A stretch of 64,000 bases of DNA, taken from contig DF820467.1 of assembly GCA_000739535.1 (NCBI GenBank), positions 1-64,000 of the forward strand. The letters are read 5' to 3'. The notes beneath the pieces are model-generated. The model was given only the letters and a program-made list of their open reading frames with translations. It did not search any database and was not told where the DNA came from. How positions within the stretch are numbered: position 1 is the first letter of the stretch; every line of letters starts with the position of its first letter. This document shows, in pieces, positions 39,159 through 60,627 of the stretch. The translations under genes were made by a program, and so were the position numbers. Source of the DNA: Candidatus Vecturithrix granuli. Its GTDB lineage: Bacteria > Moduliflexota > Moduliflexia > Moduliflexales > Moduliflexaceae.

Positions 39159-42053
39159 CTAATACCGTTCAAACTCTGAATCCTGCTCATCATCGCCAAT
39201 GGTGGATTTGGTTTTTAGTTCTGATTTCGCAGACGTTTTCTTTGCTTCTGTTCCCATTGATGTCTTCTTCTTCGGCCCTTCTGCTAAATTCTGGTGCGAT
39301 TCCGATGTTTGGGGACCTTCTTCGGCAATGGTAAAAAAGGCGATGGCCTGTTGGAGCTGTTGAGCCTGATTCACGAGTTGCTCGGCGGCTGAAGCGGTCT
39401 CCTCGGCGATCGTGGAGTTTTGCTGGGTCACACTGTCTAATTCTTGAATGGCGCGGTTAATTTGTTCTGCGCCACTATTCTGCTCATTACTGGCCGCACT
39501 GATCTCCAACACCAGTTCGGTAGTTTTACGAATACTGGGCAAAAGGGTGGCTAACATGGTTCCAGCTTTTTCCGAGATGTCAAGACTGGAGGTCGCTAAT
39601 CGGTTGATCTCTTCGGCCGCTTTTTTGGTCACCTCGGATAATTGCCGCACTTCTGAGGCAACTACCGAAAAGGCCTTGCCATGGTCCTGGGCCCGCGCCG
39701 CTTCAATGGTGGCATTCAGCGAAAGCAAGCGCGTCTGGTTGGCAATGTCTTCGATAACCGCAATTTTTTGCGCAATTTGCTGCATCGCTTTCACGGTTTC
39801 AGCCACCACCCGTCCCGCTTCTTCGGCATACTGCGCCGATTGCACGGCAATTTTTTCCGTTTGTCGGGCATTATCCGCATTCTGGCGAATATTCGCCGCC
39901 ATTTCTTCCATAGAACTGGAACTTTCCTGCATCGAAGCCGCCTGTAGCGAGGCCCCATTCGACAATTGTTGCGCGCCGGCACTCAATTCCTGACTAATGG
40001 AGACCATAGCATTGGCAGTATTTTTCACATTACTCACCACCGATTGCAATTGTTGACTCATTGTATTCAAGGCATGCATCAGATTATCCCGTGAGGATCG
40101 CTCCTGAACTTCCACCATCAGGTTCCCGGCGGCCATCGCTTCCGCCAGGTTGGTAATTTCGTGCATCGCCTCAATCAGGAGATTTAAATTATCCTTCATG
40201 ACATTAAAGTCGCCATGATACTCCGCCGTGATCGGTTCAGGCAGATCACCTTTAGCAATCTGATCTAAGTAGCCGGTCGCAACATTCAGAGGCGTCATAA
40301 AGGCATCAAGTACGCTATTGATCCCGCTGATGAGGGCGCGCCAGTCACCCGCAAAAAGTTCAGCGTTGCCCCGCGCGTCCAACCGACCATTTTGTACCGC
40401 CTGGATCAATCCCTGGGTCTCGGTTAACATCTGTTTCAGATTGTCGATCAGGAGTACCAGATTCTTTTTCAGCTTGTTGAAATCACCTCTGGCCTCCACG
40501 TTAATCTGCTCCGGAACATCGCCTCTGGCAATCTGCTCAATCGCTTCGGTGGCAATCGTAAAAGGAGTGATAAACGCATCAACCACCTGATTGAGACCTA
40601 ACACAAGTTCCCGCCACCCACCGCCGAACGCGGTCACATCGCCGCGTGTCTCAAGTTGTCCGTTTTGAATCGCCTGGCTCAGGATTTTCATCGTTTCTAA
40701 CACATTGCGGATATCAGCACCTAAGAGATTCAGGTTGTTTTTAATTTTATTGAAATCGCCATAGTAATCTTCTGTAATCTGTTCAGGGATTTCGCTTTTC
40801 GAAAGTCGCTCAATATAGGTTGCCGTTGTATTAATCGGAGTGACAAGGGCGTCAAGCAAATTGTTGATGCCCACGATGAGGTCGCGCCAATTACCTCTAT
40901 ATCCTTCCGGATGGCCACGCGTCGCTAACTTGCCATCCTGAATTTCCTGGCTCAGTCGATTCAGCTCATTCAATACCTGCGTGATCGTCGTTTGCATGGT
41001 CCGAAATGCGTTTGCCAACATCCCGATTTCGTCATGGCGCGTAATATGCAGCTCTTTACTGAAGTCGCCTTCTGCAACGGCATGTGCGGTCTCAGTAATA
41101 ATGAGATTAATAGGGGTCACAATTGATCGGGTAATCACATAGATCACAATGGCTGTGACGATCAAGCTCGAAAGGGCAAGAATCAGATTAATGTTTCGGA
41201 TCCGGATGGCCGGTGCAAATAGTTCGGTCGTATTGGCGGCCACCACTAAGATGGCCCCCAACTCATCGGAAGTTCGGTACACCGCGTGCTTTTCCGTCCC
41301 TTCCCACTGGTAAATAATCTGACCGGTTTTGTTAGTCAGCATTTCTTTACCAAACGCAAATTCCGCCAGATTTAAGGTCAAAATCCTGGTTTTATCAGGA
41401 TAGGCCAGCACGATTCCATCCATATTCAACAGATACGCGTAGCCTGTCTTCCCAACATGGATAGTATCAATAGTGTTTTCGGCAAAATACTCCAGGCGTA
41501 GAATGCCGAAAAATACCCCCATCACGTCGTTTCCGGTCTTGACCGGGGATGCAATGATAAAGACTGGCTGTTGGCTACCCTCGCTCTGACTTAACTTAGT
41601 GATGCAGGGTTTATCCGTCATGACCTCCTGAAAATACTGGGACCCTGCAATATTGTGGCCAATCATGTCCGGATGAGATGCAGCAATAATTTCGCCTTCA
41701 CTGTTCGCCAGGGCCAAAGCTTCGTAGAAATGATAATCTTCCTGAAAGGTGGTCATCTGAAGACTGGCGGCTTGCCGGGCGGACTTCCCGATATAGGTCG
41801 CCGGTATGGCATCCTGATAGATTTGCTGCGCGCTCCAATTGCGGATGTTGAGCCTGGCGCCGCCAATCCAGGAGCTTAACTCGCGAAAGGTCGCATCAGC
41901 GATCATCGTGATTTGGGCGATCATCGCCTCTTCCAACGCCTGCCTGGCTTGGGTGTACGCGATGAGAGTGGACACTCCCATGGCGATCACAAACAGAATA
42001 ATGGTGGGGACTAAGAATTTAGCCGTCAGACCAAATCGGACAGGCACTTTCAT
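39159..42053 (-). CDS. MCP with dCache sensor and about eight HAMP units
   Basis: 964 residues. Membrane helices at about 13-33 and 288-307 flank a double-Cache periplasmic domain. A canonical HAMP (about 308-360) is followed by about seven tandem HAMP-like units to residue 685, alternating [13 protein letters not shown]-type and [15 protein letters not shown]-type. The signalling domain (686-910) has the tip [20 protein letters not shown] disordered tail ends EFERY, fitting the CheR-tether pentapeptide pattern. It detects a small ligand or an SBP-ligand complex and signals to CheA, which is not in the window. The start is ATGA-coupled to a repeat leader. Confidence 0.93.
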
Positions 42054-42175
42054 AAATGGTTTCTCCTATGAAAATGTAGCGCGAAACTCCAGTTTCGCGC
42101 ACCAGTCATCCGCCCGCAAAACTGGAGTTTCGCGCTACATCTGATTTTCATTGCGTCGGGTGAGCCTACGCTCAT
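42050..42175 (-). CDS. Repeat-encoded leader ORF coupled to MCP
   Basis: A 41-codon frame starts at ATG 42175, five bases after GGAG, and ends in TGA 42052-42050, overlapping the MCP start as ATGA. It lies entirely in element A3. The N-terminal peptide [13 protein letters not shown] is the same as that of the leader at 28110. Translation is inferred from position and overlap only. Confidence 0.45.
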
Positions 42176-42186
42176 GACAACTCCTT
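42054..42186 (-). repeat. Hairpin element A3
   Basis: ATGAAAAT (42068-42075) and ATTTTCAT (42144-42151) enclose GCGAAACT / AGTTTCGC palindromes. On the minus strand it reads GGAG, leader ATG, hairpins, TAGGAG, then the MCP start. Close in sequence to A1. Confidence 0.8.
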
Positions 42187-42249: not shown

Positions 42250-43212
42250 TTATTCAACAATCGTAGCGGCCTGCAGAATATTGTACGGGATATTGATCCC
42301 TAATTTCTCCGCAGTGCTGACATTCAGCACAAACTTGGGATCGGGATCCATTTTGATGGGTACCTCATTGATGATTTTCCCATTTACAAGCACCTCAACC
42401 ACCGATTCCGCCAGCAGATGCCCCATAATCGTTTCATCGGCAACAAACCCTCCCAACGCGCCAGCGTTCACCGCAATGACAAGGAAAGAGAAGACGGGAG
42501 TATGCCCGGCCGCCTTAACAATGTTTGCCGCATAGTCATTGAGGAGATTGGCTCCGATAATTACGGCAGAGACTTTGTCACGATACGCTTCTACCGCGGC
42601 AATACTCTCAGCTTCTGTCGCACACACTTGCTCATAGTAGGTGATGCCAAGTTGTTTACAAACGGTTTGCGTCGCAGTCCGATCAAGCGGTGTGCTGGCA
42701 TGCCCCTCTTGAAGTAACAGCAACACAGAATCCAGATTCGGCAGAATTGCCTGAAAGATGTCGAATTGTTTCTCCACAGGAACATAGTACGTTACCCCCG
42801 TAATATTCCCCTCCGGAGCCTCCAGATTCTTTACCACCCCGAGCAGGCCAGGATGGTTCACACCCGCGATAAAAGTTGGAATAACAGGAGGATGGGCGAT
42901 CAACCATTGGGATCCATTACTCCGCATCACAATCATGCCATCCTTTTCCCTTTCAAATCGGGCAATAAGCTCACTCATGGCCTCCACATCCGGAACAGTT
43001 TGGAGCTCGAGATCGACATCCGGGACAAGTTCCATGATCTTCGCGCGAAAAGCCTCTTCGATTTTGATTGCCTGGTTAGACTCCCCCGGCCAGGTGATGC
43101 CTAATTTTAACGGGGCGGCCAGGGCAACTGTGTTACTGACTGCTAATACAACAATGATGACCATTGCGACACTTTTCATGACTCTCATACACATGTCTCC
43201 TTGTTCTTCCAT
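42250..43212 (-). CDS. PF04392-type ABC substrate-binding protein, divergent member
   Basis: About 312-320 residues: signal peptide (ending TVALA), then an ABC_sub_bind two-lobe fold with VPVEKQFDIFQAILPNLDSV and DETIMGHLLAESVVEVLVNG. It is the most diverged of the nine and ends NIPYNILQAATIVE, the usual family ending, without the YEGKQVIRK tail of the others. Two good starts exist: 43212 (AGGAG, spacing 7) and 43188 (AAGGAG, spacing 8). Placed between two MCP genes, with no transporter genes. Confidence 0.88.
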   Translation of the reverse strand: MEEQGDMCMRVMKSVAMVIIVVLAVSNTVALAAPLKLGITWPGESNQAIKIEEAFRAKIMELVPDVDLELQTVPDVEAMSELIARFEREKDGMIVMRSNGSQWLIAHPPVIPTFIAGVNHPGLLGVVKNLEAPEGNITGVTYYVPVEKQFDIFQAILPNLDSVLLLLQEGHASTPLDRTATQTVCKQLGITYYEQVCATEAESIAAVEAYRDKVSAVIIGANLLNDYAANIVKAAGHTPVFSFLVIAVNAGALGGFVADETIMGHLLAESVVEVLVNGKIINEVPIKMDPDPKFVLNVSTAEKLGINIPYNILQAATIVE

Positions 43213-43322
43213 TTCAATTCTCCTTTCATAAATACACCGCTATACTTACAAAAGGAACAACCGATAATTAGGGGTTTAACAACATTCTGTTCCAACCTCA
43301 CGATGGGTTTGATATTTTAAAA

Positions 43323-43351
43323 TTATTCTGTCCTGTGATCATATTCGTCAA
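43323..43351 (-). promoter_or_regulatory. Promoter-like element upstream of divergent SBP
   Basis: On the minus strand TTGACG (43351-43346) followed after 17-18 bases by GAATAA/AATAAT. About 110 bp before the SBP start. Confidence 0.35.
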
Positions 43352-43466
43352 GAGTGATACGATATTTTTTTAAAACCCATGAGAGTATTCTATCAGAAAA
43401 CCAATAGAAAGATTGGAAATTCCACTACGATGATACCATCATGCTCCTTAAAAAATCTCAAAAACA

Positions 43467-45911
43467 TCAAAATCGTTCAAACTTGCCATCAATGTCATCA
43501 GCATGATCGCGAAGGGGTTTAGGGGATGAATCTGCAGGCTCAGCGTGGGTCTCTTCACCTTTCACCTTCCTGATAGGCGATCGCGTCTGCTGCTTTGATT
43601 GTTCAGAACGGGATGATGTTTTCTGATGCATGGCTTTTAACTCCTTTAGCTGAAAAGATTCCTCAATGGTAAAAAAGGCAATGGCGTGTTGGAGTTGTTG
43701 GGCCTGATTCACAAGTTGCTCGGCGGCTGAAGCGGTCTCCTCGGCGATCGTGGAGTTTTGCTGGGTTACGCTGTCTAATTCTTGAATAGCGCGGTTAATT
43801 TGTTCTGCGCCGACATGCTGCTCATGGCTGGCTGCACTGATGTCCAACACCAGTTCGGTGGTTCTACGAATACTGGGCACAAGCGTGGCTAACATGGCTC
43901 CGGCCTTTTCGGAGATGTCAAGACTGGAAGACGCTAATTGATTGATTTCTTCGGCCGCTTTTTTGGTCACGTCGGATAATTGCCGCACTTCGGAGGCAAC
44001 CACTGAAAAGGCTTTGCCGTGATCCTGAGCGCGCGCCGCTTCAATAGTGGCATTCAGTGAGAGCAAGCGCGTCTGGTTGGCAATGTCTTCGATAATGGCG
44101 ATTTTTTGCGCAATCTGCTGCATGGCTTTCACGGTTTCAGTCACCACTCGCCCTGTTTCTTCGGCATACTGCGCTGATTGTACCGCAATTTTTTCTGTCT
44201 CGCGGGCATTATCGGCATTCTGGCGGATATTCGCCGCCATTTCTTCCATGGAGCTGGAGCTTTCCTCCATCGAAGCCGCCTGTTCCGATGATCCATTCGA
44301 CAACTGTTCCGCACCGGAACTCAATTCCTGGCTGATGGTAACCATAGTATTCGCAGTTTCTTTGACATTCGCGACAACTGATTGTAAATGCTGGATCATC
44401 GCGTTTAAGGCTTGCATCAGGGTATCCTGCGCCGAACGTTCCTCCAGAGTCACAGTTAAATCGCCCTCAGACATTTTTTGAGCCAGACTGGTGATGGCGT
44501 TCATGGCGTCAATCAACTGGTTCAGATTCTCTTTCAGGGTGTTAAAGTCGCCTTGATACTCCCCGCTGATTTTAGGCGGGATGGTGCCTTTTGCTACCTG
44601 ATCGATAATCGTAGCCGCAGTGCTGATCGGTGCAGCAAATGCATCAACAACCTCATTGATTCCCATCACCAGATCGCGCCAGCCGCCAGCCATGTTTGCT
44701 ACGTCGCCGCGCACATCCAACTTGCCCAGACGAATCGCTTGAATAAGGGTGCTCACTGTTTGCAGAACATCGGTGAGTCTGGCAACCATTCCCTCTAAAG
44801 CTTCCATCAAGCGATCATGCTCTGATCGCTTACGAACCTCTACCGTCAGATTGCCGGCGGAAATCTGTTCAGCCAAATTTGTAATCTGCGTCATCGTATC
44901 AATCAATTCATTCAAATTGTGCCTGGTGATATTAAAATCGCCCTGATACTCAGCGGTGATCTTGTCAGGAATGTCACCTATTGAAATCCGAGCGAGTGCC
45001 GCTGATGTGACGGTGATGGGGTCGACAAAGGCTTCAATCAAGTTATTCACCCCTCCAATCAAGTCGCGCCAACTGCCGCTATAGCTTTCGATTTCGCCGC
45101 GCGCTGTCAGTCGGCCTTCCTGAATCGCCTGGATCAGACCTTGTAAATCCTGGAGAACCTGCCGAATCGTGGTTTGCATAGTTTGAAACGCACTGGCTAA
45201 AGCTCCGATTTCATCGCGCTGACGAATCTGCAAGGTCTGATTAAAATCGCCAGCAACAATGGCCTTGGCTCCATTTGCCAACGCTACCACCGGATTCACA
45301 ATCAACTTCTTCCCCATGAGGTATGCTAAAAGGAGTAAGACCACGAAAATGATTAGAGCAGCCCAACCCACCTTCACTAAATAGGCCTGCCGCTGCTGAA
45401 ACATGGTGATTTTGGGCAGTGAGGCTCCGATAAGCCAATCCCAGGTCTCGAAATACCGGTACGCGGTGAAATGGCCGATCCCTCCAAGGGCATAATCGCG
45501 CGTGCCGGATTTTTGACTGACCATCTGCTCAATCACCTCAGGACTGAATGCTTGTTGATAGAGCTGCTCGTTACTTTGCGAGGCTTTCGACTGCAAGAGC
45601 ACTTTTTGCTCTTTGATCGCGAGTACATAATACTCTTCGGTCTGCGTTTCCGCTTCAGCCTGAAGTTGCTGCAAAATCTCAGTCTGCGCTTGTTGGACGT
45701 ACGCAGCAATACCAGTCACGCCGGACTCCTCTAACAGTTTGATGGTGGCTTCAATTTTTTCAATCTGCCTCGCTAATTTCAGCGAGAGAAGTTCGGTATT
45801 TAACCCGTAAATAATCGTGTTAATCACCCCGGTGCCGATCAGCACCATCAACACCACCAAAATTAATAACAGCAAACCTATAAATAGAGAGAGTTTCATT
45901 TGAATTTTCAT
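43467..45911 (-). CDS. MCP with small Cache sensor and about seven HAMP units
   Basis: About 814 residues from MKIQMKLS. A membrane helix, a short periplasmic Cache-like domain of about 150 residues (FTAYRYFETWDWLIGASLP), a second helix, one canonical HAMP and about six more HAMP-like units follow. The signalling domain is almost identical to its paralogues ([19 protein letters not shown]). The tail ends KFERF, again fitting the CheR-tether pattern. The N-terminal half is closest to the 58987-60627 MCP. The first in-frame codon at 45971 adds 20 unlikely residues. Confidence 0.92.
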   Translation of the reverse strand: MKIQMKLSLFIGLLLLILVVLMVLIGTGVINTIIYGLNTELLSLKLARQIEKIEATIKLLEESGVTGIAAYVQQAQTEILQQLQAEAETQTEEYYVLAIKEQKVLLQSKASQSNEQLYQQAFSPEVIEQMVSQKSGTRDYALGGIGHFTAYRYFETWDWLIGASLPKITMFQQRQAYLVKVGWAALIIFVVLLLLAYLMGKKLIVNPVVALANGAKAIVAGDFNQTLQIRQRDEIGALASAFQTMQTTIRQVLQDLQGLIQAIQEGRLTARGEIESYSGSWRDLIGGVNNLIEAFVDPITVTSAALARISIGDIPDKITAEYQGDFNITRHNLNELIDTMTQITNLAEQISAGNLTVEVRKRSEHDRLMEALEGMVARLTDVLQTVSTLIQAIRLGKLDVRGDVANMAGGWRDLVMGINEVVDAFAAPISTAATIIDQVAKGTIPPKISGEYQGDFNTLKENLNQLIDAMNAITSLAQKMSEGDLTVTLEERSAQDTLMQALNAMIQHLQSVVANVKETANTMVTISQELSSGAEQLSNGSSEQAASMEESSSSMEEMAANIRQNADNARETEKIAVQSAQYAEETGRVVTETVKAMQQIAQKIAIIEDIANQTRLLSLNATIEAARAQDHGKAFSVVASEVRQLSDVTKKAAEEINQLASSSLDISEKAGAMLATLVPSIRRTTELVLDISAASHEQHVGAEQINRAIQELDSVTQQNSTIAEETASAAEQLVNQAQQLQHAIAFFTIEESFQLKELKAMHQKTSSRSEQSKQQTRSPIRKVKGEETHAEPADSSPKPLRDHADDIDGKFERF

Positions 45912-46002
45912 AGCTGTCAACAAAATGCACAGATAACCCGGATCTTGCAGATGTTTTGGCACGATCTGCAAGACCAGAGGTCATCTATATGTCCTTATGC
46001 GC

Positions 46003-47013
46003 TTATTTGCGGATAACATCTTTGCCTTCGTAATCGTTAAAAATCACATTCGCAAGCTTTAAGGCATCCAATGACAATGTAATACCCATGAAATCAGCAG
46101 TTTTGCGGTTTATAGCAACCAGCGTTTTGCGCGGATATTCGGCTTTGATCGACTGAATGGGTTCGCCTTTCAGAATGCGCGCCGCCATTTCAGCTAATTG
46201 CAGCGCGACATCATCGGTATCAACCGCAAAGGCGCATAACACTCCGGATTGGACTGTCGGTACCCAAAAGGTGACATAGGGTTTCTTGAGGCGTTCGCGC
46301 TGCCACTGAGCCACCTCTACATTTCGATCCGGAATAGTCCCATCGCGTTTGAGATAGGGCCAGGCTAAAACGACCAACCAGCCGACTTCGGGATCCTCAT
46401 TATACTTCAGCAACGCCGCTTGCCAGTCTTCATAGTGGGTCGTGTCTTCAATCGCTTTCAAGGGAACATCCAGGCGTTTGAGTGCATCCAAGACTTCCTC
46501 TTTTGGAAATATGACGCGTTGCTTATTTTCAAAAAAGACCGCCTGTTGTCCCGGTTTCAACGGCGCAATCGTGTGTAACAGCTTCAAACTATTATACACG
46601 GTATCTTTGTGTCCCGTATATACACCTGTGATGTTAGCGGTCGGAATACCGTCCGGACCAACATACGGGGCAGTGCCCCAATACGAAACGGTAGGTACGC
46701 CCAATTCATGCAATTTTGCTGTGACCCCGGTTTCACCGCTATACTCAATCACCACATCCGGCGCGAGCTGCGCCACCTGCTCTGGCCAGTCTGCCGGTCT
46801 TGGCGCCTCAAAAGAAACCAGTTTGAGGTTTGTGTTTTCTTGAAATCCCGCCTGCGCCAATCCAGCGAGCACGTGTTGTTTCATGGTTGTTTTGGCAGGC
46901 TCTGATGTGTATTCCACCAGCACCACAGTTTTCATCTCTGCTGTGAATCCAGCATTCGCCAGAAAACCCAAACAGCAAATCATTGCGATCATAATTCTCA
47001 TTAACCACCTCAT
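46003..47013 (-). CDS. PF04392-type ABC substrate-binding protein with YEGK tail
   Basis: About 336 residues from MRWLMRIM (GGAGG eight bases upstream; the longer frame to 47106 is rejected). Signal peptide ending GFTA, then the ABC_sub_bind fold: VVIEYSGETGVTAKL, HYEDWQAALLKYNEDPEVGW, LCAFAVDTDDVALQLAEMAARIL and INRKTADFMGI. It ends YEGKDVIRK. A hairpin (AACAGCAGG / CCTGCCGTT region, 47043-47072) lies upstream. Sits between two MCP genes. Confidence 0.9.
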   Translation of the reverse strand: MRWLMRIMIAMICCLGFLANAGFTAEMKTVVLVEYTSEPAKTTMKQHVLAGLAQAGFQENTNLKLVSFEAPRPADWPEQVAQLAPDVVIEYSGETGVTAKLHELGVPTVSYWGTAPYVGPDGIPTANITGVYTGHKDTVYNSLKLLHTIAPLKPGQQAVFFENKQRVIFPKEEVLDALKRLDVPLKAIEDTTHYEDWQAALLKYNEDPEVGWLVVLAWPYLKRDGTIPDRNVEVAQWQRERLKKPYVTFWVPTVQSGVLCAFAVDTDDVALQLAEMAARILKGEPIQSIKAEYPRKTLVAINRKTADFMGITLSLDALKLANVIFNDYEGKDVIRK

Positions 47014-47223: not shown

Positions 47224-49488
47224 TCAATAACGCTCAAATTCAGTATCGTACTTATCGGCATTGTCGTGAAAGCTGACATTCTCAGGAGATGCAGCAGATA
47301 AAAATGATGTCTTTTCTTCTTTTGCTCCCCTTTTTTCAGATATTGAGCTTTTCTCTGGCTTTCTCGGATGAGAGATAATGCCATGATTATTCGATAGTTT
47401 CCGGGAAGACTCTGCAATCGTAAAAAAGGCGATCGCGTGTTGGAGTTGTTGGGCCTGATTCACGAGTTGCTCGGCGGCTGAAGCCGTTTCCTCGGCGATG
47501 GTCGAATTTTGCTGGGTCACGCTGTCTAATTCTTGAATAGCGTGGTTAATTTGTTCTGCGCCGGCATTCTGTTCATGACTGGCCGCACTAATCTCTAACA
47601 CCAGTTCGGTGGTTCTCCGGATACTGGGCACGAGCGTGGCTAACATGGTTCCGGCTTTTTCGGAGATGTCGAGACTGGAAGATGCTAATTGATTAATCTC
47701 TTCGGCCGCTTTTTTGGTCACATCAGATAATTGCCGTACTTCGGAGGCAACTACCGAAAAGGCTTTGCCATGGTCCTGGGCGCGCGCCGCTTCAATGGTG
47801 GCATTCAGCGAGAGCAAGCGCGTCTGATTGGCAATGTCTTCGATGATGGCGATTTTTTGCGCAATCTGCTGCATGGCTTTGACGGTTTCAGCCACCACCC
47901 GCCCGGCTTCTTCGGCATACTGCGCTGATTGCACGGCAATTTTTTCTGTCTCGCGGGCATTATCGGCATTCTGACGGATATTCGCAGCCATTTCCTCTAT
48001 GGAGCTGGAACTCTCCTGCATCGAAGCCGCCTGCTCAGAGGCTCCATTTGACAACTGTTCCGCGCTGGCACTCAATTCCTGACTGACAGTCACCATGGTA
48101 TTGGCGGTCTCTTTGACATTCATGACCACCGACTGCAAGTGTTGGATCATGGCGTTCAAGGCTTGCATCAGGGTATCCTGCGCCGATCGTTCCTCAAGGG
48201 TCACAGTTAAATCGCCCTCAGACATTTTTTGAGCCAGACTGGTGATGTCATTCATGGCGTTAATCAACTGGTTCAGGTTCTCTTTCAGCGTGTTAAAGTC
48301 ACCCTGATACTCCCCGGTGATTTTGGGCGGGATACTGCCTTGCGCCACCTGATCAATGATCGTGGCCGCAGTACTGATCGGTTCGACGAAAGCATCGACC
48401 ACAGAATTAACGCCCAACACGAGTTCGCGCCAGCCACCGCCGAAGGCCGTCACATCGCCGCGTGTATTGAGTTGTCCATTTTGAATCCCCTGGCTCAGGG
48501 TTTTCATCGTTTGCAGAACATTCCGGATATCGGCGCCTAAGAGATTCAGGTTATTTTTAATTTTATTGAAATCACCGTTGTAGTTTTCCGTAATTTGTTC
48601 CGGGATATCGCTTTCCGAAAGTCGCTCAATGTAGGTTGCCGTCGTATTAATCGGGGTGACAAGGGCATCAAGCAAATTGTTGATGCCCACGATGAGGTTG
48701 CGCCAACTGCCGGCGTACCCCTCCACATCGCCGCGCGTCGCCAGTTGACCTGCTTGAATCGCCTGGATCAAGCCCTGTAAATCCAGTAGAACTTGTTGAA
48801 TTGTGGTTTGCATGGTCTGAAAAGCACTAGCTAATGCGCCGATTTCATCGCGCTGGCGGATTTGAAAGCTCTGGTCAAAATTGCCGGCCGCAATCCCTTT
48901 TGCGAGGACAAGGAGTTTGTTGATGGGGCGCAGCAACATGCTTTGCAAGATAAAAATCAGAACAAGGAAGATGCTTATATCTAACACCAGAACAATCACC
49001 ACGATGCTGATCACTTCGCGGATTAATTCTTCCTGGAGAAAACGTTGGGTCAGATAGACCTCTACCGTACCTAACGTTTCTTGATCTTTTACGATTGGTT
49101 TCTTGATGAGAATAAACTCATCTGAGATCTCTCCTTGGGTGTCAATAATCTGCCAGTCCTTGTCTCGAATCTTGCCAATGGAAATACTGTTATCATCGGC
49201 TTTTCTGATCAACACGGCATAGATATTGTAATTTCGCATTTCCGAAAGGAGGATCATTTTAATTTCTTCCTTGGCGTAATTCCACATCGGCAAGGCGAGC
49301 GCCTCGGCCAGTTTCTCGGCGGTATCATTCGCCAGCATTCTGAGTTCAACGGTCTTCCGTGTAGAAATTTCATAATATTGATATCCCCCAAAGACCAGGA
49401 GGATCAAGGTAATGAAGGCAATAACGGTTAATCCTATTTTGAGTTGAATCTTGTAAGTTTTTCGTATCCCTGGCAACTGGGTACTCAT
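47224..49488 (-). CDS. MCP with short periplasmic sensor and about six HAMP units
   Basis: About 754 residues. Helix (about 18-38), a periplasmic domain of about 120 residues with [13 protein letters not shown] (a sensor type seen before HAMP in other receptors), a second helix, HAMP plus about five tandem HAMP-like units and a signalling domain nearly identical to the neighbours. The tail ends DTEFERY, and a [17 protein letters not shown]-like segment is shared with the 58987 MCP. ATG 49488 has GAGGAG eight bases upstream and is preferred to 49494. Confidence 0.92.
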
Positions 49489-49532
49489 GATCATAGCTCC
49501 TCAAAAACTTCTTTTTCCATGTTTCCATCGTC

Positions 49533-53006: not shown

Positions 53007-53055
53007 TCAAATATGATACAGCATTATGCAGAACCATTAACCTGATACCTGTCAC

Positions 53056-53238: not shown

Positions 53239-54249
53239 TTATTTCTTCCGAATGACTTGTTTGCCTTCGTAGTCATCATAAATGACATTCGCCAATTTTA
53301 AAACTTCCATTGAAAACACGATCCCTATATTCGTGGCAGTTTTCCGGTTCAAGGCAATACTGACCTTGTGCGGATATTCAGCTTTGATCGTGTTGATTGG
53401 TTCTCCTTGTAACACGCGCGCGGCCAGTTTCCCGGCTTGCGCGGCCAGTGCATCCAGATCAATGCAAAATCCACATAACAAGCCCATCTGGACAGTAAAT
53501 TCCCAATAAGATATCGTCGGTTTTTTCAAGTGTTCCCGCATCCAGGGGAGGACCTCGGTTAGGATATCCACGCGACTCCCATCCCGTTTTCTCACTGGCG
53601 CCAAAAACAAGATCCAGCCGACTTCGATATCTTCGTTATACTGAAGAATCGCCTGCTGCCAATCCTCGTAGATCGTCGTATCCAACGCCGCTTTGAGCGG
53701 GATTTGTAAGCGTTGCAGCGCATCAACGACTACCGCTTTCGGGATTAAAGCAACCTCCGGAATTTCCAGAAGGACCGCTTTTTGTCCCGACTCGAGCGGC
53801 GCGACTTTCTGTAAAAACTTGTAACTGTTGTACGCCATATCCGGTAGAGTGGCGTATGCCCCGGTCACATTCGCCGTGGGGATGCCCTCAGAATTCACAT
53901 AGGGTTCAACTCCAAGGGCTGTGATGATAGGAATGGAGAGTCCTTTCAAGGCCGTGACAAACTGTCCGAATTCATGAACATTGATAACGATATCCGGCGC
54001 AACTTCCTTGACCTGCGAGACTAGTTGCACGGGATCGGTGATTCCTGATACCATCACCAGTGTACTCGTCAGATTTTTCTGTTCCACAAACCCCGCCTGT
54101 TCCAATCCTTTCAGCGTTTGTTGCACCATCGACTCTGTCGCAGGTGAATATACAATCATCACTTTTTTCAGCTCCGCGGCGAATCCGATGTTAGCGAATA
54201 ATCCTATCACGACGATCATGCTTACGATAATTCTCACAATGCTTTTCAT
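53239..54249 (-). CDS. PF04392-type SBP, tandem array member 3
   Basis: 336 residues, signal peptide ending GFAA. IVINVHEFGQFVTALKGL, IYEDWQQAILQYNEDIEVGW, WMREHLKKPTISYWE and CGFCIDLDALAAQAGKL follow, and it ends DDYEGKQVIRKK. The first lobe is near member 2. No clear leader palindrome is seen here, and the ribosome site is weak (GAGTG), unlike most other members. Confidence 0.9.
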   Translation of the reverse strand: MKSIVRIIVSMIVVIGLFANIGFAAELKKVMIVYSPATESMVQQTLKGLEQAGFVEQKNLTSTLVMVSGITDPVQLVSQVKEVAPDIVINVHEFGQFVTALKGLSIPIITALGVEPYVNSEGIPTANVTGAYATLPDMAYNSYKFLQKVAPLESGQKAVLLEIPEVALIPKAVVVDALQRLQIPLKAALDTTIYEDWQQAILQYNEDIEVGWILFLAPVRKRDGSRVDILTEVLPWMREHLKKPTISYWEFTVQMGLLCGFCIDLDALAAQAGKLAARVLQGEPINTIKAEYPHKVSIALNRKTATNIGIVFSMEVLKLANVIYDDYEGKQVIRKK

Positions 54250-54338
54250 GATGCTACACTCATTGCCTCAACAGCCGAAATGTCAAATGATATGCTCATC
54301 ACTACATCCCCTTCGGAGGTATTGATTATTATGGGCGA

Positions 54339-54367
54339 ATTTTTGAACCGATCCTTCACATTGTCAA
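54339..54367 (-). promoter_or_regulatory. TTGACA promoter-like box, copy 4
   Basis: On the minus strand CCCTTGACA (54367-54362 for the hexamer), a 17-base spacer and AAAAAT. The C-tract is short. Upstream of SBP member 3. Confidence 0.4.
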
Positions 54368-54390
54368 GGGAATTCAATTGAACCGCGCCC

Positions 54391-55404
54391 CTATTTCTTC
54401 CGAATGACTTGCTTGCCTTCGTAGTCATCATAGATGACATTGGCGAGGTTCAACACATCCAGTGAGAACACAATGCCTAACTTCGTCGCGGTTTTGCGGT
54501 TCAGGGCAATACTGACCTTGCGGGGATATTCGGCCTTGATCGTTCGTATATCTTCGCCTTGCAGCACGCGCGCGACCATTTCACCACATTGCACGCCGAC
54601 CTCCGCGGTATCAATGCCAAAAGCGCAGAGGGCGCCTGCTTGTACAGAGAACTCCCATTGGGTAATCGTCGGCTTTTTGAGATGCTCGCGCTCCCAGGGA
54701 TAAATTTCAGCCACCGTGTTCACCGCGCTGCCGTCTCGCCTATGTCTCGGGGTTGAGCGCAAGATCCATCCGACATCGGGATCGTCATTATATTGCAGAA
54801 TCGCTTGCTGCCAATCTTCGTACACTGCCGTATTGACAATGGCCTTGAGTGGGATCTGTAACCGTTGCAGGGCATCGATCACCGTTTCTTTGGGAAGGAT
54901 CGTTGACTCCGGATTATCCAGGAAAACCACCTGTTGTCCTGGCTTCAGGGGAGCAACTTTCTGCAAGAATTTATAGCTATTATACACCAGATCCGGTAAA
55001 TTGGTGTAGATCCCGGTAATATTGCCGGTGGGCATGCCGTCGGCCCCGACAAACGATTCCACATTGACCCGCGCAATCACTGGAATTGACAGTTTATTTA
55101 AAGCGGCAAAGAGAGTTCCGTATCCAGGGAGGGCTAAGATCACATCGGGCGCGATTTCCTGAATCTGGACAATCAGTGGCGCCGGGTCGCCTTCTTTCGG
55201 GGGCACCGCAATTCTTTTGATAATGACATTTTGTTGATCGATCAGTCCCGCCTGTGTCAGGCCATTCAACATTTGTTCCTGAATCGTTTGGTTGGTCGGG
55301 AGATCCAGCACCACGAGTGTTTTGAGATCCGCCGCGAATCCGAGATTGGCGAACATTCCCAGCAACACCACCAACAGCACACTCATTGTCACCATGCGTT
55401 TCAT
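54391..55404 (-). CDS. PF04392-type SBP, tandem array member 4
   Basis: 337 residues, signal peptide ending GFAA. VILALPGYGTLFAALNKL, VYEDWQQAILQYNDDPDVGW, WEREHLKKPTITQWE and LCAFGIDTAEVGVQCGEM follow, with tail DDYEGKQVIRKK. Close to member 1 along its whole length, although members 2 and 3 lie between; duplications were therefore not simply stepwise. AGGAG is present nine bases before ATG. Confidence 0.9.
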   Translation of the reverse strand: MKRMVTMSVLLVVLLGMFANLGFAADLKTLVVLDLPTNQTIQEQMLNGLTQAGLIDQQNVIIKRIAVPPKEGDPAPLIVQIQEIAPDVILALPGYGTLFAALNKLSIPVIARVNVESFVGADGMPTGNITGIYTNLPDLVYNSYKFLQKVAPLKPGQQVVFLDNPESTILPKETVIDALQRLQIPLKAIVNTAVYEDWQQAILQYNDDPDVGWILRSTPRHRRDGSAVNTVAEIYPWEREHLKKPTITQWEFSVQAGALCAFGIDTAEVGVQCGEMVARVLQGEDIRTIKAEYPRKVSIALNRKTATKLGIVFSLDVLNLANVIYDDYEGKQVIRKK

Positions 55405-55420
55405 AGCGTTACGCTCCTGA

Positions 55421-55475
55421 CCGGCCCAACGTGAGCGATGTGATGAATGGTCATCGGATCGCTCGTTGGGCAGGC
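55421..55475 (-). promoter_or_regulatory. Leader palindrome of SBP member 4
   Basis: CCGGCCCAACGTGAGCGAT (55421-55439) pairs with ATCGCTCGTTGGGCAGG (55458-55474), with two extra bases on one side. The ends read GCCCAAC and GTTGGGC on the coding strand. The AGGAG follows directly. Confidence 0.65.
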
Positions 55476-55514
55476 GTCAAAAGATAATAATATGAGGAAA
55501 TCTCATTACTTGAA

Positions 55515-55543
55515 GCATTGCGATCTTCACATTGAGATGTCAA
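55515..55543 (-). promoter_or_regulatory. C-tract TTGACAT promoter, copy 5
   Basis: On the minus strand CCCCCTTGACAT (hexamer 55543-55538), 17-base spacer, CAATGC (55520-55515). Upstream of SBP member 4. Confidence 0.5.
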
Positions 55544-55566
55544 GGGGGAGCAGGAAAAAAATGTCA

Positions 55567-56574
55567 TTATTTTCGAATCACCTGCTTGCCTTCGTAGTCA
55601 TCATAGATGACATTGGCTAATTTCAGGACGTCTGTTGAGAATACAATGCCTAAGTTCGTAGCAGTTTTGCGGTTCAGGGCAATCCTGATTTTTTGCGGAT
55701 ATTCAGCCTTGATGGACTGAATCGATTCCCCTTGCAGGACGCGCGCGGCCATCCGTCCGAATTGCATACTCATCGCATGGATATCCATCCCAAACGCACA
55801 TAACGTGCCGAGCTGAACCGGCTCTTCCCAATACGTAACGGTCGGTTTTTGGAAATATTCCCGCTGCCAGGGATAGAGCTCGGCCTTCATGTCCAAACGA
55901 CTGCCATCGCGTTTGCGCGTTGGCGATGACCGTAAAATCCAGCCTACCTCAGGATCGTCGCTATACTGAAGCGCCGCGGCTTGCCAATCCTCATACACGG
56001 TGGCATTGACAACGGCTTTCAGGGGGATCTGTAAGCGTTGCAATGCGTCCATGACCTTCGCTTTGGGGATGGGGGCAAATTCCGGATTATCCAGCAAGAC
56101 CACTGCTTGCCCCGCTTTCAGCGGCGCGACTTTCCGTAAAAACTTGTAACTGTTATAGAACATATCGTGGAGCGTACTATACATGCCGGTAATATTGGCG
56201 GTGGGGATCCCTTCGGCATTCACATAGGGTTCCACATTCAGCCGCGTCACCACCGGAAAGGAGAGTCCCTTCAGCGCCGCCAACGCATCGGGAAATTCCA
56301 CGGCGTTCAGTACCACATCTGGCTGGGCTTCCTTGACGCGCGATATCAGTTGCGGAATATCATCCGAGGTAGAGATGATGATTTCCTGGAACGTGATATT
56401 TTCTTGAGGGACAAACCCGGCCTGTTCTAACCCTTTCAGGATATATTCGGTCATCGGCGGCATCATATCTGTCCGTAAGGAGACGACGGTTTTCATCTCC
56501 GCTGCGAACCCGATGTTCTCGAACATTCCAAACAACACAACCAGCAACACACTCATTGTCACCATGCGTTTCAT
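55567..56574 (-). CDS. PF04392-type SBP, tandem array member 5
   Basis: About 335 residues from MKRMVTMS (AGGAG nine bases upstream; the frame to 56628 crosses the leader palindrome). Signal peptide ending GFAA. VVLNAVEFPDALAALKGL, VYEDWQAAALQYSDDPEVGW, WQREYFQKPTVTYWE and LCAFGMDIHAMSMQFGRM follow, with tail DDYEGKQVIRK. The only member without a C-tract promoter box in front: just the 23-bp palindrome separates it from member 6. Confidence 0.9.
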   Translation of the reverse strand: MKRMVTMSVLLVVLFGMFENIGFAAEMKTVVSLRTDMMPPMTEYILKGLEQAGFVPQENITFQEIIISTSDDIPQLISRVKEAQPDVVLNAVEFPDALAALKGLSFPVVTRLNVEPYVNAEGIPTANITGMYSTLHDMFYNSYKFLRKVAPLKAGQAVVLLDNPEFAPIPKAKVMDALQRLQIPLKAVVNATVYEDWQAAALQYSDDPEVGWILRSSPTRKRDGSRLDMKAELYPWQREYFQKPTVTYWEEPVQLGTLCAFGMDIHAMSMQFGRMAARVLQGESIQSIKAEYPQKIRIALNRKTATNLGIVFSTDVLKLANVIYDDYEGKQVIRK

Positions 56575-56588
56575 AGCGTTACGCTCCT

Positions 56589-56644
56589 GGCCGGTCCAAC
56601 GAGCGTGGTGAGGGCTTGGCATCACCACGCTCGTTGGACCGGCC
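56589..56644 (-). promoter_or_regulatory. Perfect 23-bp leader palindrome of SBP member 5
   Basis: Left arm 56589-56611 and right arm 56622-56644 are exact complements (core GGTCCAACGAGCGTGGTGA) around a 10-nt loop. It lies between the member 6 stop and the member 5 AGGAG. No T-tract. Confidence 0.8.
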
Positions 56645-56652
56645 TCTTAATG

Positions 56653-57660
56653 TTACTTCCGAATCACTTGTTTGCCCTCGTAATCTTCATAGATCACATT
56701 GGCTAAACTCAACACATCCATTGAGAACACAATACCTAAGTTCGTGGCAGTTTTGCGGTTCAGAGAAATATTGATTTTACCGGGATATTCGGCTTTGATC
56801 GTCTGGATATCTTCGCCTTGCAGAATGCGCGCGACCATTCGGCCGCATTGGATGCCCACTGCGCTCGTATCAATGGAAAAACCGCATAATGTGCCGGCCT
56901 GCACGGCAAATTCCCAATATGCAATCGTAGGTTTTTTCAGGTGTTCCCGTTCCCAGGGAAAAAATTCTGTAGGGATATTCACGCTGGTTCCATCGCGTTT
57001 TTTCGTCGGAGAAGATCGTAAAATCCAACCAACCTCTGGATCGTCGTTATATTGTAGGACAGCTTGCTGCCAATCCTCATATACGGTCACATTCACTACC
57101 GCTTTGAGAGGAATATTTAATCGTTGCAATGCATCACCGATCACCTCTTTTGGCGTCGCTGAAAATTCCGGATTATCGAGATAGACGACTTGCTGGCCCG
57201 GCTGCAGCGGGGCGACTTTTTGCAGAAACTTGTAACTATGATAGACCATATCCTGCATCGTTGTGTAGACCCCGGTAATGTTTGCAGTGGGGACACCTTC
57301 GACATCAACGTAAGGTTCAAGATTGATCCTGGTTACGACAGGGATAGGGAGATCACGCAACGCCTCAAGAATCTGGGGATATTCAACCGCATTCAAGATG
57401 ACGTCCGGCGCAGTCTCCTGCACGTATGTTACGATTTGGGCTGGGTCGCTGTCACGTGAAACACGCGCCTGAAGGATAGTTACATTGTGTTGATCCACCA
57501 AACCAGCCTGTTCCAGTCCTTGTAACATGTGCTCTGTGATCGAGGCGACCATATCGGTGTACAAAAAGAGAACGTTTTTCATCTCTGAGGCCCTCGCAAC
57601 ATTGGCGAATAACCCCATTAAAACGGCCATAAGCACAATTATCTTCGCAATACTTTTCAT
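56653..57660 (-). CDS. PF04392-type SBP, tandem array member 6
   Basis: About 335 residues from MKSIAKII, with GGAGAG in front; the frame to 57747 crosses the leader. Signal peptide ending ARAS. VILNAVEYPQILEALRDL, VYEDWQQAVLQYNDDPEVGW, WEREHLKKPTIAYWE and LCGFSIDTSAVGIQCGRM follow, with tail EDYEGKQVIRK. First lobe near member 5. It may be co-transcribed with member 5. Confidence 0.9.
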   Translation of the reverse strand: MKSIAKIIVLMAVLMGLFANVARASEMKNVLFLYTDMVASITEHMLQGLEQAGLVDQHNVTILQARVSRDSDPAQIVTYVQETAPDVILNAVEYPQILEALRDLPIPVVTRINLEPYVDVEGVPTANITGVYTTMQDMVYHSYKFLQKVAPLQPGQQVVYLDNPEFSATPKEVIGDALQRLNIPLKAVVNVTVYEDWQQAVLQYNDDPEVGWILRSSPTKKRDGTSVNIPTEFFPWEREHLKKPTIAYWEFAVQAGTLCGFSIDTSAVGIQCGRMVARILQGEDIQTIKAEYPGKINISLNRKTATNLGIVFSMDVLSLANVIYEDYEGKQVIRK

Positions 57661-57674
57661 AGCAATACTCTCCT

Positions 57675-57729
57675 GGCTTGCAATACACCAACGATTTGCT
57701 GAATTCAACACATCGTTCGTTTGGCAGGC
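57675..57729 (-). promoter_or_regulatory. Leader palindrome of SBP member 6
   Basis: GGCTTGCAATACACCAACGAT on the left and ATCGTTCGTTTGGCAGGC on the right pair with several mismatches around TTGAATTCA. Same place as the other leaders. Confidence 0.5.
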
Positions 57730-57771
57730 ATGAAAATTGATGATCATGAAGGAAATTTCAGCTTATTATCA

Positions 57772-57800
57772 TTTTTGAGTTCATATCACAGAAATGTCAA
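57772..57800 (-). promoter_or_regulatory. C-tract TTGACAT promoter-like box, copy 6
   Basis: On the minus strand CCCCCTCTTGACAT (hexamer 57800-57795); the -10 (CAAAAA) is weak. Upstream of SBP member 6. Confidence 0.4.
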
Positions 57801-57869
57801 GAGGGGGAATTTATCGTAAACGTGATTTTCTCTGTGATACTACCTGGAACCTTCCACCCTCCCACATCA

Positions 57870-58886
57870 TTACTTCCGAATGACCTGCTTGCCTTCGTAG
57901 TCGTCATAGATGACGTTCGCTAACTTCAACACATCCAGCGAGAATACAATCCCTAAGTTCATGGCGGTTTTGCGGTTCAGAGCAATAATGACGTTACGCG
58001 GATATTCGGCCTTGATGGTGCTGATCGGCTCCCCTTGTAAGACGCGCGCCGCCATCTCGCCGCATTGCATCCCCACGCCATTCAGATCAAAGCTAAATCC
58101 ACACAATACTCCTGCCTGGACGGCATTTTCCAGGTGGGAAATCGAAGGTTTTTTCAAATTTTCTCGCATCCAGGGATACATCTCTTTCTGGGCATCGACG
58201 CTGCTTCCATCGCGTTTGTTTGTGGGACCGCTCCCTTGCAAAATCCACCCGACCTCCGGATCATCGTTATACTTCAGGATCGCCTCCTGCCACGCTTCGT
58301 AAATCGCGCCGTCGTCCACCACCGCTTTAACCGGAATTTGTAACCGTTGCAGCGCATCAAGCACCTCGGCTTTCGAGATGACCAATTGCTGCTGGTGATT
58401 ATCCAGATAAACCACCTGTTGCCCGGCTTTGAGCGGCGCAACTTTCTGCAAAAACTTGTAACTGTTGTACATCAGATCCTGAAGCTTGGTGTACACCCCG
58501 GACACATTCCCAATCGGCATCCCGCTTGTATCCACGAAGGATTCAACTGCCGTCATTGTGATGACGGGAACCGAGAATTGTTTTAATCCCTGGATGACAT
58601 TCGTGAAGGCTGTGAAACTTAAGACAACATCCGGTGCCTCGGCCTTTACCTGGGCAATTAACTGTCCAGGATCGGTTGCGCCTGACACTTCGATCCACGC
58701 GATCATCACATTTTTTTGTTCGACAAAATCTCTCTCTTCCAAACTGATTACTGCTTTCTGCGCCATCGGCTTTGTTCGACCAGTATGCAAAAACAGAATT
58801 TTTTTCATCTCTGCGGCAAACCCAATATTCGCGAACATCCCTACTAACACAACCAGCAGCACACTCAACTTTACCATGCGTTTCAT
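57870..58886 (-). CDS. PF04392-type SBP, tandem array member 7
   Basis: 338 residues, signal peptide ending GFAA. VVLSFTAFTNVIQGLKQF, IYEAWQEAILKYNDDPEVGW, WMRENLKKPSISHLE and LCGFSFDLNGVGMQCGEM follow, with tail DDYEGKQVIRK. First array member in transcription order, 100 bp downstream of the MCP 58987-60627, with no promoter box visible between, so it may be read through from the MCP gene. AGGAG lies nine bases before ATG. Confidence 0.9.
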   Translation of the reverse strand: MKRMVKLSVLLVVLVGMFANIGFAAEMKKILFLHTGRTKPMAQKAVISLEERDFVEQKNVMIAWIEVSGATDPGQLIAQVKAEAPDVVLSFTAFTNVIQGLKQFSVPVITMTAVESFVDTSGMPIGNVSGVYTKLQDLMYNSYKFLQKVAPLKAGQQVVYLDNHQQQLVISKAEVLDALQRLQIPVKAVVDDGAIYEAWQEAILKYNDDPEVGWILQGSGPTNKRDGSSVDAQKEMYPWMRENLKKPSISHLENAVQAGVLCGFSFDLNGVGMQCGEMAARVLQGEPISTIKAEYPRNVIIALNRKTAMNLGIVFSLDVLKLANVIYDDYEGKQVIRK

Positions 58887-58901: not shown

Positions 58902-58955
58902 GCCTGCAAAGCGTCAACGATCTGCTGAACTCAGCGCACCGTTCGTTTGGCAGGC
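58902..58955 (-). promoter_or_regulatory. Leader palindrome of SBP member 7
   Basis: GCCTGCAAAGCGTCAACGAT at left and CCGTTCGTTTGGCAGGC at right, imperfect, with an inner perfect GCTGA / TCAGC hairpin. Lies between the MCP stop and the SBP ribosome site. Confidence 0.55.
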
Positions 58956-58986
58956 GTGAAAAATGATGATAATAGATGACATCCCA

Positions 58987-60627
58987 TCAATAGCGTTCAA
59001 ACTCAGTATCATATTTATCGACATGATCGTCAAGGCTTAACGTTTTTGGAGATGAAGATGCCCTCTTTTCTTCTTTTGCCCCCCGTTTTTCAGACAGTGG
59101 TTTTTCCTCTGGCTTTCCCGGATGAGGGGCGATCCCATGATTATTCGCTGGCGTCCGGGAAGACTCTGCAATCGTAAAAAAAGCAATAGCGTTCTGGAGT
59201 TGGCGTGCTTGATTTGCCAATTCTTCGGCTGATGAAGCCGTTTCCTCTGCGATAATCGTATTCTGCTGGGTGATCTGATCGGCTTGCTGGATGGCCAGAT
59301 TGACCTGGGCTGCGCCGGTATCCTGCTCATGGCTTGCAGTACTGATTTCCTGGATCAATTCAGTAGTTTTTTGGATACTGGGGACGAGCGTGGACAGCAT
59401 CTGCCCTGCTTTCTCCGACACTTCAAGACTGGACATGGCCAGTTGATTGATTTCTTCCGCCGCTTTTTTGGTCACATCGGATAATTGCCGCACTTCAGCG
59501 GCCACTACCGAAAACGCCTTCCCATGCTCCTGAGCCCGCGCCGCCTCAATCGTCGCATTCAACGAGAGCATACGGGTCTGACTGGCAATATCCTCAACAA
59601 TGGCGATTTTTTCGGCAATTTGCTGCATGGCTGCCACCGTTGCCGCCACTACACGCCCGGTTTCTTCGGCATACTCTGCTGATTGCACCGCAATCTTTTC
59701 CGTCTCGCGAGCATTATTTGCATTCTGACGGATATTCGCCGCCATTTCTTGCATCGAACTGGAACTCTCTTGCATCGAAGCCGCCTGGCCAGCGGCCCCG
59801 GTTGACAATTGTTCCGATCGGGCATTTAACTCCTGACTGATGGTCACAATCGCGTTGGCGGTATCTCTGATGTTCACCACCACCTCTCGAATGGTTGTTT
59901 GCATTGTTTGAAATGCTTTCGCCAATACCCCGATTTCATCGTGCTTATCCATCTGGAGGGATTGATCTAAATTGCCGGCCGCAATTTGATTGGCGACTTT
60001 TACCAACGTCACCACTGGATTCACAATCAGCTTTTTCCCCATGAGATACGCTAAAAACAATAATACCACAAAGACGATCAGGGAAGTCCAGCCCACGGTC
60101 ACTAAATAGGTCTGACGCTGCCGAAACATGGTGGTTGTAGGCAACGACGCGCTGATGAGCCAATCCCATGCGTCAAAATAGCGGTACACGGCGAAATAGT
60201 TCGCCCCGGCAAGGCTGTATGTCTGTGATCCGGATTTTTGGTTAACCATCTCCTGGATGAGTTCGAAATCGAGATCCTGTTCCACATTCTGCTGAACGTT
60301 TTTCGACTGTAAGAGCAACTGTCGGTCTTTGACGGCGAGCACGTAATACACTTCGGGCTGGGTTTCCACGTCAGCCTGTAATTGCTGGAGAATCTCATTT
60401 TGCGCTTGCTGCACATACGCAGCGATGCCGGTCGCGCCGGAATCTTCTAACAATTTGGCGGCTGTTTCGATTTTTTCAATGCGCGTGTCCAATTTCAGAG
60501 AAAGCAGGTCTGTATTTAACCTGTAAATGATGGCGTTAATCACCCAGGTGCCAATCGCAACCATTAACACCGCCAATAGCAACAACATCGCGCCTATAAA
60601 CACCGACAGTTTCATTTGAATTTTCAT
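58987..60627 (-). CDS. MCP with small Cache sensor and a single HAMP
   Basis: 546 residues from MKIQMKLS. Helix, periplasmic Cache-like domain (FAVYRYFDAWDWLISASLP), helix, one HAMP (LMGKKLIVNPVVTLVKVANQIAAGNLDQ in part) and a signalling domain with [19 protein letters not shown]. The tail ends DTEFERY. The N-terminal half is paralogous to the 43467 MCP and the tail to the 47224 MCP, so it looks like a recombinant without the HAMP array. First gene of the chemosensory block; no clear ribosome site. Confidence 0.92.
   Translation of the reverse strand: MKIQMKLSVFIGAMLLLLAVLMVAIGTWVINAIIYRLNTDLLSLKLDTRIEKIETAAKLLEDSGATGIAAYVQQAQNEILQQLQADVETQPEVYYVLAVKDRQLLLQSKNVQQNVEQDLDFELIQEMVNQKSGSQTYSLAGANYFAVYRYFDAWDWLISASLPTTTMFRQRQTYLVTVGWTSLIVFVVLLFLAYLMGKKLIVNPVVTLVKVANQIAAGNLDQSLQMDKHDEIGVLAKAFQTMQTTIREVVVNIRDTANAIVTISQELNARSEQLSTGAAGQAASMQESSSSMQEMAANIRQNANNARETEKIAVQSAEYAEETGRVVAATVAAMQQIAEKIAIVEDIASQTRMLSLNATIEAARAQEHGKAFSVVAAEVRQLSDVTKKAAEEINQLAMSSLEVSEKAGQMLSTLVPSIQKTTELIQEISTASHEQDTGAAQVNLAIQQADQITQQNTIIAEETASSAEELANQARQLQNAIAFFTIAESSRTPANNHGIAPHPGKPEEKPLSEKRGAKEEKRASSSPKTLSLDDHVDKYDTEFERY

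Follow-up and report, generated by a model that had tools for sequence, protein, structure and literature searches.

Membrane chemoreceptors with graded numbers of HAMP units in the genome of Candidatus Vecturithrix granuli

The receptor locus

The window analysed here, meaning the whole stretch of 64,000 nucleotides at positions 1 to 64,000 of contig DF820467.1 (assembly GCA_000739535.1), belongs to contig 17 of the 21 contigs that make up the 8,384,694-base genome of Candidatus Vecturithrix granuli and carries four genes for methyl-accepting chemotaxis proteins (MCPs) whose signalling domains are preceded by 8, 7, 6 and 1 HAMP units. The organism, UASB270, belongs to candidate phylum KSB3, and the cited passages of its description report gliding filaments that lack flagellar genes, move in glucose or maltose gradients and encode more than 60 methyl-accepting proteins per KSB3 genome (PMC4312070); in the present genome 66 MCP open frames were found. 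All four window genes are encoded on the minus strand, at the positions given by an original prediction made by reading the sequence, and their frames are all open. Each protein matches PF00015 (MCPsignal) above the cut-off, carries the hairpin tip motif and shows two membrane segments by hydropathy, and no Pfam match to a PAS domain was obtained in any window MCP. The features are listed below, with units delimited from the anchor G minus 19 to plus 28 and assigned by unit profiles to the types C, B, A and T; sensors X and Y are our names for two recurring sensor regions.

39159..42053, minus strand: MCP1, 964 amino acids, with dCache_1 sensor, eight HAMP units C-B-A-B-A-B-A-T, signalling domain and C-terminal EFERY
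40983..41126, minus strand: MCP1 HAMP unit 1 (C, DEIG), by unit profiles
40710..40991, minus strand: MCP1 dyad 1, units 2B and 3A, by unit profiles
40437..40718, minus strand: MCP1 dyad 2, units 4B and 5A, by unit profiles (the dyad modelled alone)
40164..40445, minus strand: MCP1 dyad 3, units 6B and 7A, by unit profiles
40041..40184, minus strand: MCP1 HAMP unit 8 (T, output side), by unit profiles
39330..40034, minus strand: MCP1 signalling domain
43467..45971, minus strand: MCP2, with sensor X, seven HAMP units C-B-A-T-B-A-T, signalling domain and C-terminal KFERF
45165..45308, minus strand: MCP2 unit 1 (C), by unit profiles
44769..45173, minus strand: MCP2 first B-A-T cassette, units 2-4, by unit profiles
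44379..44783, minus strand: MCP2 second B-A-T cassette, units 5-7, by unit profiles
43668..44372, minus strand: MCP2 signalling domain
47224..49494, minus strand: MCP3, 756 amino acids, with sensor Y, six HAMP units C-B-A-B-A-T, signalling domain and C-terminal EFERY
48799..48942, minus strand: MCP3 unit 1 (C), by unit profiles
48526..48807, minus strand: MCP3 dyad 1, units 2B and 3A, by unit profiles
48253..48534, minus strand: MCP3 dyad 2, units 4B and 5A, by unit profiles
48130..48273, minus strand: MCP3 unit 6 (T), by unit profiles
48424..48693, minus strand: MCP1-like tract within MCP3 (residues ~268-357) with MCP2-like sequence on both flanks, by informative-site runs
47419..48123, minus strand: MCP3 signalling domain
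58987..60627, minus strand: MCP4, 546 amino acids, with sensor X, single C HAMP, signalling domain and C-terminal EFERY
59890..60033, minus strand: MCP4 unit 1 (C), joined straight to the signalling domain, by unit profiles

Number and types of HAMP units

The original prediction had counted about 8, 7, 6 and 1 HAMP-like units in these proteins and had proposed a search with HAMP models as a check. Profiles trained without the four proteins returned exactly these numbers for MCP1, MCP2, MCP3 and MCP4, in agreement with the counts by eye, and of the two outcomes that the prediction had named as contrary to it, repeats foreign to HAMP and equal unit counts, neither was found. All 22 units scored at least 46.7 bits with the held-out profiles, and when the four proteins were shuffled with composition preserved, only 3 of 1000 shuffles gave any match (maximum 14.0 bits). 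The alternation of two sub-types that had been described holds for B and A, but the units fall into four types rather than two: C, which is membrane-proximal and carries DEIG, B, A, and T, which adjoins the output domain. Accordingly, the stacks read C-(BA)3-T in MCP1, C-(BA)2-T in MCP3, C-BAT-BAT in MCP2 and C alone in MCP4. Each of the four C units carries DEIG, which is absent from all 18 units of types B, A and T; confinement of DExG to the membrane-proximal HAMP is given as a rule for poly-HAMP proteins in the cited passages of PMC3570549. Pfam reports HAMP and HAMP_2 in MCP1-3 and one HAMP in MCP4, and such domain tables undercount the units because the HAMP_2 model runs from the end of a B unit through the next A unit. 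Assembly collapse or frame errors are not supported as the source of the ladder, since same-type units within one stack are only 42-54% identical and the four frames are open.

The relationship of the repeats to HAMP was assessed by profile comparison and structure prediction. In hhalign comparisons with canonical HAMP from the other MCPs of the genome, A reached 94% and T 96.5%, and B reached 90.5% against A, while the maximum among sixty column-shuffled profiles was 9.5%. Among proteins of solved structure, those nearest in sequence to the dyad profile were histidine kinases 9trk (E 7.9e-20) and 9trj (7e-10), and Aer2 3vol (1.5e-7) was among its best relatives. An AlphaFold2 model of MCP1 dyad 2, built from 55 aligned dyads, reached a predicted local distance difference test score (pLDDT) of 91.7 and shows a helix, a connector, a 32-residue helix, a second connector and a helix; like the other predictions made here, it is a monomer. 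Its top three matches by Foldseek and VIA-align were three Aer2 poly-HAMP structures, the VIA-align superposition on HAMP2-3 (residues 65-157) giving Z of 10.3-10.8 and a root-mean-square deviation of 1.9-2.1 over 92-93 residues. Judged from profiles and models, the repeats are related to HAMP and form helix-connector-helix units in tandem, the B type being only weakly related to canonical HAMP by direct comparison.

A genome-wide series

The original prediction presented the four genes as a graded series within one locus and as a natural experiment on how HAMP stacks scale signals. The series is present there but is not confined there: the signalling subfamily, taken as MCPs above 200 bits, has 22 members across the genome, with HAMP counts from 0 or 1 up to ~13. 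At least three units occur in nine of the 22 (members outside the window bear C or L labels), namely MCP1 (8), MCP2 (7), MCP3 (6), C5 (9), C11 (5), C13 (3, as C-T-T), C15 (3), C14 (3) and C21a; twelve members have one unit, and in one (L053) none was detected. C21a (L051, G000:C21:374000-381000) is a 1287-residue frame in which the profiles found 10 or 11 units and ~13 were counted by eye. A PAS-looking domain was also noticed in the middle of this protein, besides the HAMP-like units.

As a natural experiment, the window offers a series of counts, but its four genes alone are confounded, because they include three kinds of sensor and the output domain of MCP4 has diverged. The stronger natural experiment is genome-wide, since like sensors recur on unlike stacks of equal hairpin length. 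Sensor X (60-68% identity) is found with 7 units in MCP2, 1 in MCP4 and 3 in C15, the sensors of MCP2 and MCP4 being 68% identical in amino acids, and sensor Y (26-53% identity) with 6 units in MCP3, 3 in C13, 1 in L057 and 9 in C5. A dCache-type sensor (28% identity) is shared by MCP1 with 8 units and C11 with 5. Outside the subfamily, the profiles assign C-T-T to eighteen MCP frames and C-T-T-T to one more, and three-HAMP receptors are therefore common in this genome.

Unit spacing, hairpin and signalling domains

The spacing of units was compared in 49 genes from 37 genomes or loci, with units of at least 40 bits unless stated. B and A are 44 residues apart in 110 of 110 pairs, A and the following B are 47 residues apart in 63 of 63, and successive B units are 91 residues apart in 62 of 62, across 23 genomes, among them those of archaea, Ignavibacteria and V. 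granuli. When the score limit was lifted, 137 of 138 B-A and 71 of 74 A-B pairs kept their spacing. Moreover, T to T is 39 residues in 24 of 24 pairs (at least 15 bits), so that strict register is a general trait of inner junctions; C to T is variable. The 91 residues correspond to 13 heptads, a numerical remark only, as connectors break the helices.

The hairpin was measured in 19 of the 22 subfamily members, leaving out L053, L065 and L074. The distance from its tip to the end of the signalling domain is 126 residues in all 19, which amounts to 18 heptads per arm, and by this length the hairpin may be of the 36-heptad (36H) signalling class. From the last anchor to the tip there are 153 residues after T (7 of 7), 155 or 156 after C (10 of 10) and 157 after A (2 of 2). 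The possibility that stack length is made up for in the hairpin was rejected, since both arms are constant in length across the measured members; stack length is thus uncompensated there.

The signalling domains, described originally as almost identical, deserve that description in MCP1-3 (89.8-94.0% amino acid identity) but not in MCP4, which is 76.2-77.9% identical to those three; tails, and sensors other than X, are much less similar. A tree of signalling domains was built from 20 of the 22 subfamily members, L074 and L065 being omitted as rows without the tip motif. It groups the window four with C13 (100/99) and with C15 (100/97), so that one clade (100/97) holds unit counts of 8, 7, 6, 1, 3 and 3, and it separates all 20 placed members of the genome from the 23 relatives found elsewhere (100/97). 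The C-terminal FER[YF] is found in the four window MCPs, and an FE[RQ][YFH] end in 15 of the 22 subfamily members and in none of the 44 other MCP frames of the genome; C-terminal pentapeptides of the form aromatic-x-x-aromatic tether CheR, and these ends may do so too. Besides, the five-unit C11, which has the signalling subfamily and tail of the window MCPs, heads a row (L121:5715-13891) in which the next genes encode CheA, with two CheW domains and a receiver domain, a CheR-CheD fusion and a frame that reads by eye as CheB. We infer that this gene row is the home chemotaxis system of the subfamily; gene neighbourhoods were listed for 5 of the 14 stretches around family members.

Recombination within the stacks

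MCP3 is a recombinant, with roughly one dyad's length of sequence from an MCP1-like gene inserted in an MCP2-like backbone. In 60-base windows, its DNA is 80-93% identical to MCP1 over residues ~255-357 and 42-68% identical in the stack on either side of this tract, up to unit 6; in those flanking parts of the stack it is 72-95% identical to MCP2 after the first two windows. At 361 informative sites, 162 side with MCP1 and 199 with MCP2, and none of 20,000 permutations reached either run of sites. Both change-points fall inside B units, about one dyad apart. The dyad tree agrees with this mosaic, since dyad 1 of MCP3 groups with dyad 1 of MCP1 (100/92) and dyad 2 with dyad 2 of MCP2 (94/70). 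It follows that stacks change by recombination, with paralogues swapping stretches of about one dyad. Recent tandem duplication inside each stack was rejected for MCP1-3, because dyads within one gene average 45-48% identity and are most closely related to dyads of other genes. In the Methanolobus locus L085, the similarity between dyads of a single gene reaches 89%, which points to recent tandem growth in that locus. The phylogeny that had been proposed as a way of ordering gains and losses of units therefore yielded the recombinant and the relatives of the dyads in other genes, but not a full order of events.

Discussion

We favour, with moderate confidence, the reading that these are membrane chemoreceptors of one subfamily with a modular HAMP stack as cytoplasmic stalk, for which we propose a role in signal relay and in setting receptor height. 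In their sequences the order is a membrane-proximal C unit, as DExG input, then variable B-A dyads or B-A-T cassettes, usually a closing T, and the constant hairpin. Dyads would be gained, lost and exchanged by recombination in similar B units with the helical register preserved. It has been reported that the HAMP stack of Aer2 relays a conformational signal through alternating bundle states, according to the cited passages of PMC3570549, and by analogy each dyad may act like HAMP2-HAMP3 of Aer2, as two coupled bundles that switch in opposite senses and hand the ligand signal down the stack. Because hairpin length is constant, unit number would mainly determine how far the signalling tip stands from the membrane, as published array geometry suggests.

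In the passages cited, a HAMP is taken as 35 angstroms long, one or two are said to be usual in receptors, and receptors that differ in length are said to separate into arrays of their own (PMC6628036); a height difference of about 2 nm is cited as separating receptors (PMC6759762), and taller arrays were measured for Aer2-type receptors (PMC7184735). With 2.3 nm (our estimate from helix lengths of the dyad model) to 3.5 nm per unit, MCP1 is estimated to stand ~16-25 nm higher than MCP4, and given this excess and the published segregation by length, the sorting of receptors by height into separate arrays appears most likely. Receptors with unlike stacks would then assemble into arrays of their own, or be weak competitors for a shared array, and would still rely on one type of kinase. 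An extension of the idea is multi-storey chemosensing, in which 1 to ~13 units would set the heights of several kinase layers, with stack length as an array address that dyad recombination rewrites; we regard it as doubtful.

Several observations weigh against the favoured reading. Compared directly with canonical HAMP, B reached only 29% in hhalign, and the Foldseek E-values of the Aer2 matches were weak (0.03 to 0.33). Moreover, helical repeats may attain Z values like those of the VIA-align superposition from their arrangement alone. Structure prediction of the stacks, which had also been proposed as a check, was informative for the Aer2-like dyad but not for the full stack: the prediction for the complete MCP1 stack (401 residues, pLDDT 38) is unusable in three dimensions, with a helix pattern that agrees and eight non-helical gaps that coincide with the eight anchors. 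The genome has eight matches to the CheA dimerisation domain, and the members may not all use the same CheA; no expression, array or motility data on these receptors were found.

The locus may also be seen chiefly as a cluster for sensing through solute-binding proteins, in which the MCPs would read several periplasmic binding proteins encoded next to them, with the differences in HAMP number incidental; this view is compatible with the others and, taken as the main explanation, somewhat unlikely. Nine PF04392 genes (42250-58886), eight of them alike in DNA, lie in the window, together with SBP_bac_3 genes at 38330 and 49574. Of the 17 PF04392 matches and 19 SBP_bac_3 matches in the genome, these nine and two, respectively, stand between and beside the window MCPs. 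No permease or ATPase frame was recognised by reading between them, and they may encode orphan binding proteins on which the MCP sensors draw. C15 (sensor X, three units) is directly followed by another PF04392 gene (L132:7588-10615). However, such a cluster is silent on the stalk, neighbours are covered for only some family members, and the neighbour of C13 has no Pfam match.

A less probable explanation, and an unlikely one in our opinion, is that recombination among paralogues produces the unit counts as nearly neutral by-products, with rigid dyads relaying the signal equally well whatever their number and selection acting on sensors and output only. The mixture of 8, 7, 6 and 1 units with C-T-T and C-B-A stacks in one signalling clade, the 1, 3 and 7 or 1, 3, 6 and 9 units of genes with the same sensor, and the mosaic of MCP3 would all be expected from it, yet the spacing strictly kept in 23 genomes argues for selection on stack geometry, though perhaps not on number, and number should matter if a gap of ~2 nm already segregates receptors, as the cited passages of PMC6759762 have it. 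A parity code, in which each unit inverts the signal and even (MCP1, MCP3) and odd (MCP2, MCP4) stacks give opposite kinase responses, recalls the opposite outputs of Aer2 HAMP1 and HAMP1-2 in Tar chimeras and the alternation of HAMP conformers (passages of PMC3570549) and could draw on the presence of both parities in one signalling clade, but is highly improbable, as sensor Y occurs with 1, 3, 6 and 9 units, so that parity is not kept within a sensor type, and whole-dyad steps would leave the sign unchanged.

Regarding known systems, the modular stalk proposed here resembles Aer2 of Pseudomonas aeruginosa (3lnr, 4i3m, 4i44, 3vol), in which a contiguous HAMP stack feeds an MCP signalling domain and on whose HAMP2-HAMP3 the B-A dyad superposes. 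Aer2, however, is soluble, with a haem PAS and 3+2 HAMP units (cited passages of PMC3570549), whereas the window MCPs have two membrane segments, periplasmic sensors, up to 8 units and no PAS match. The kinases 9trk and 9trj share the repeated HAMP-like units and come nearest to the dyad profile among solved sequences, but are histidine kinases and not MCPs; we take them to be perhaps of the fungal Nik1 type. Unlike in a Nik1-type kinase, the window stacks are followed by MCPsignal and not by a histidine kinase and receiver. HAMP arrays of BA type were found in 35 loci of many phyla, with signalling domains that fall outside the clade of the V. granuli genome, and longer ones occur, with 18 units detected in Methanolobus L085 and 30 in Peptococcaceae L095. 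Long HAMP arrays of alternating types were reportedly described in a 2010 survey by Dunin-Horkawicz and Lupas. The Desulfatirhabdium locus L084 has the same order as MCP1 (C-B-A-B-A-B-A-T), and its two array-bearing MCP frames have 8 and 3 detected units, so unequal neighbours occur outside V. granuli. HAMP numbers also differ among MCPs of one cell in the 36H and 38H receptors of Azospirillum (cited passages of PMC6759762), where extra HAMP units are offset by helical linkers and heights are equal, unlike in V. granuli, where the hairpin provides no offset.

The architecture itself is thus not new, and the useful part is the large set of receptors with like output and graded length in one genome; in the literature on poly-HAMP receptors and variable HAMP number among paralogues, no such series was described among the matches listed. 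Whether HAMP stacks invert, damp or only lengthen the relay has been studied so far with cut-down Aer2 constructs, and V. granuli gives natural sets with like sensors, equal hairpins and 1, 3 and 7 or 1, 3, 6 and 9 units. These sets also present array assembly with a puzzle, given that, according to published work, receptors whose heights differ by a few nanometres stay in separate arrays.

Further observations

The genes that come after the nine-unit C5 encode an SBP_bac_5 protein and a permease of the BPD_transp_1 family (L131:2916-9301). The true start of MCP2 is probably the ATG at 45911 and not the listed TTG (45971), the ATG agreeing with MCP4 and C15. HAMP_2 matches were obtained in 3 of the 4 genomes of the phylum examined, V. 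granuli included. Finally, an MCP signalling match at G000:C21:338599-339018 contains an in-frame TAG and is probably a broken gene.

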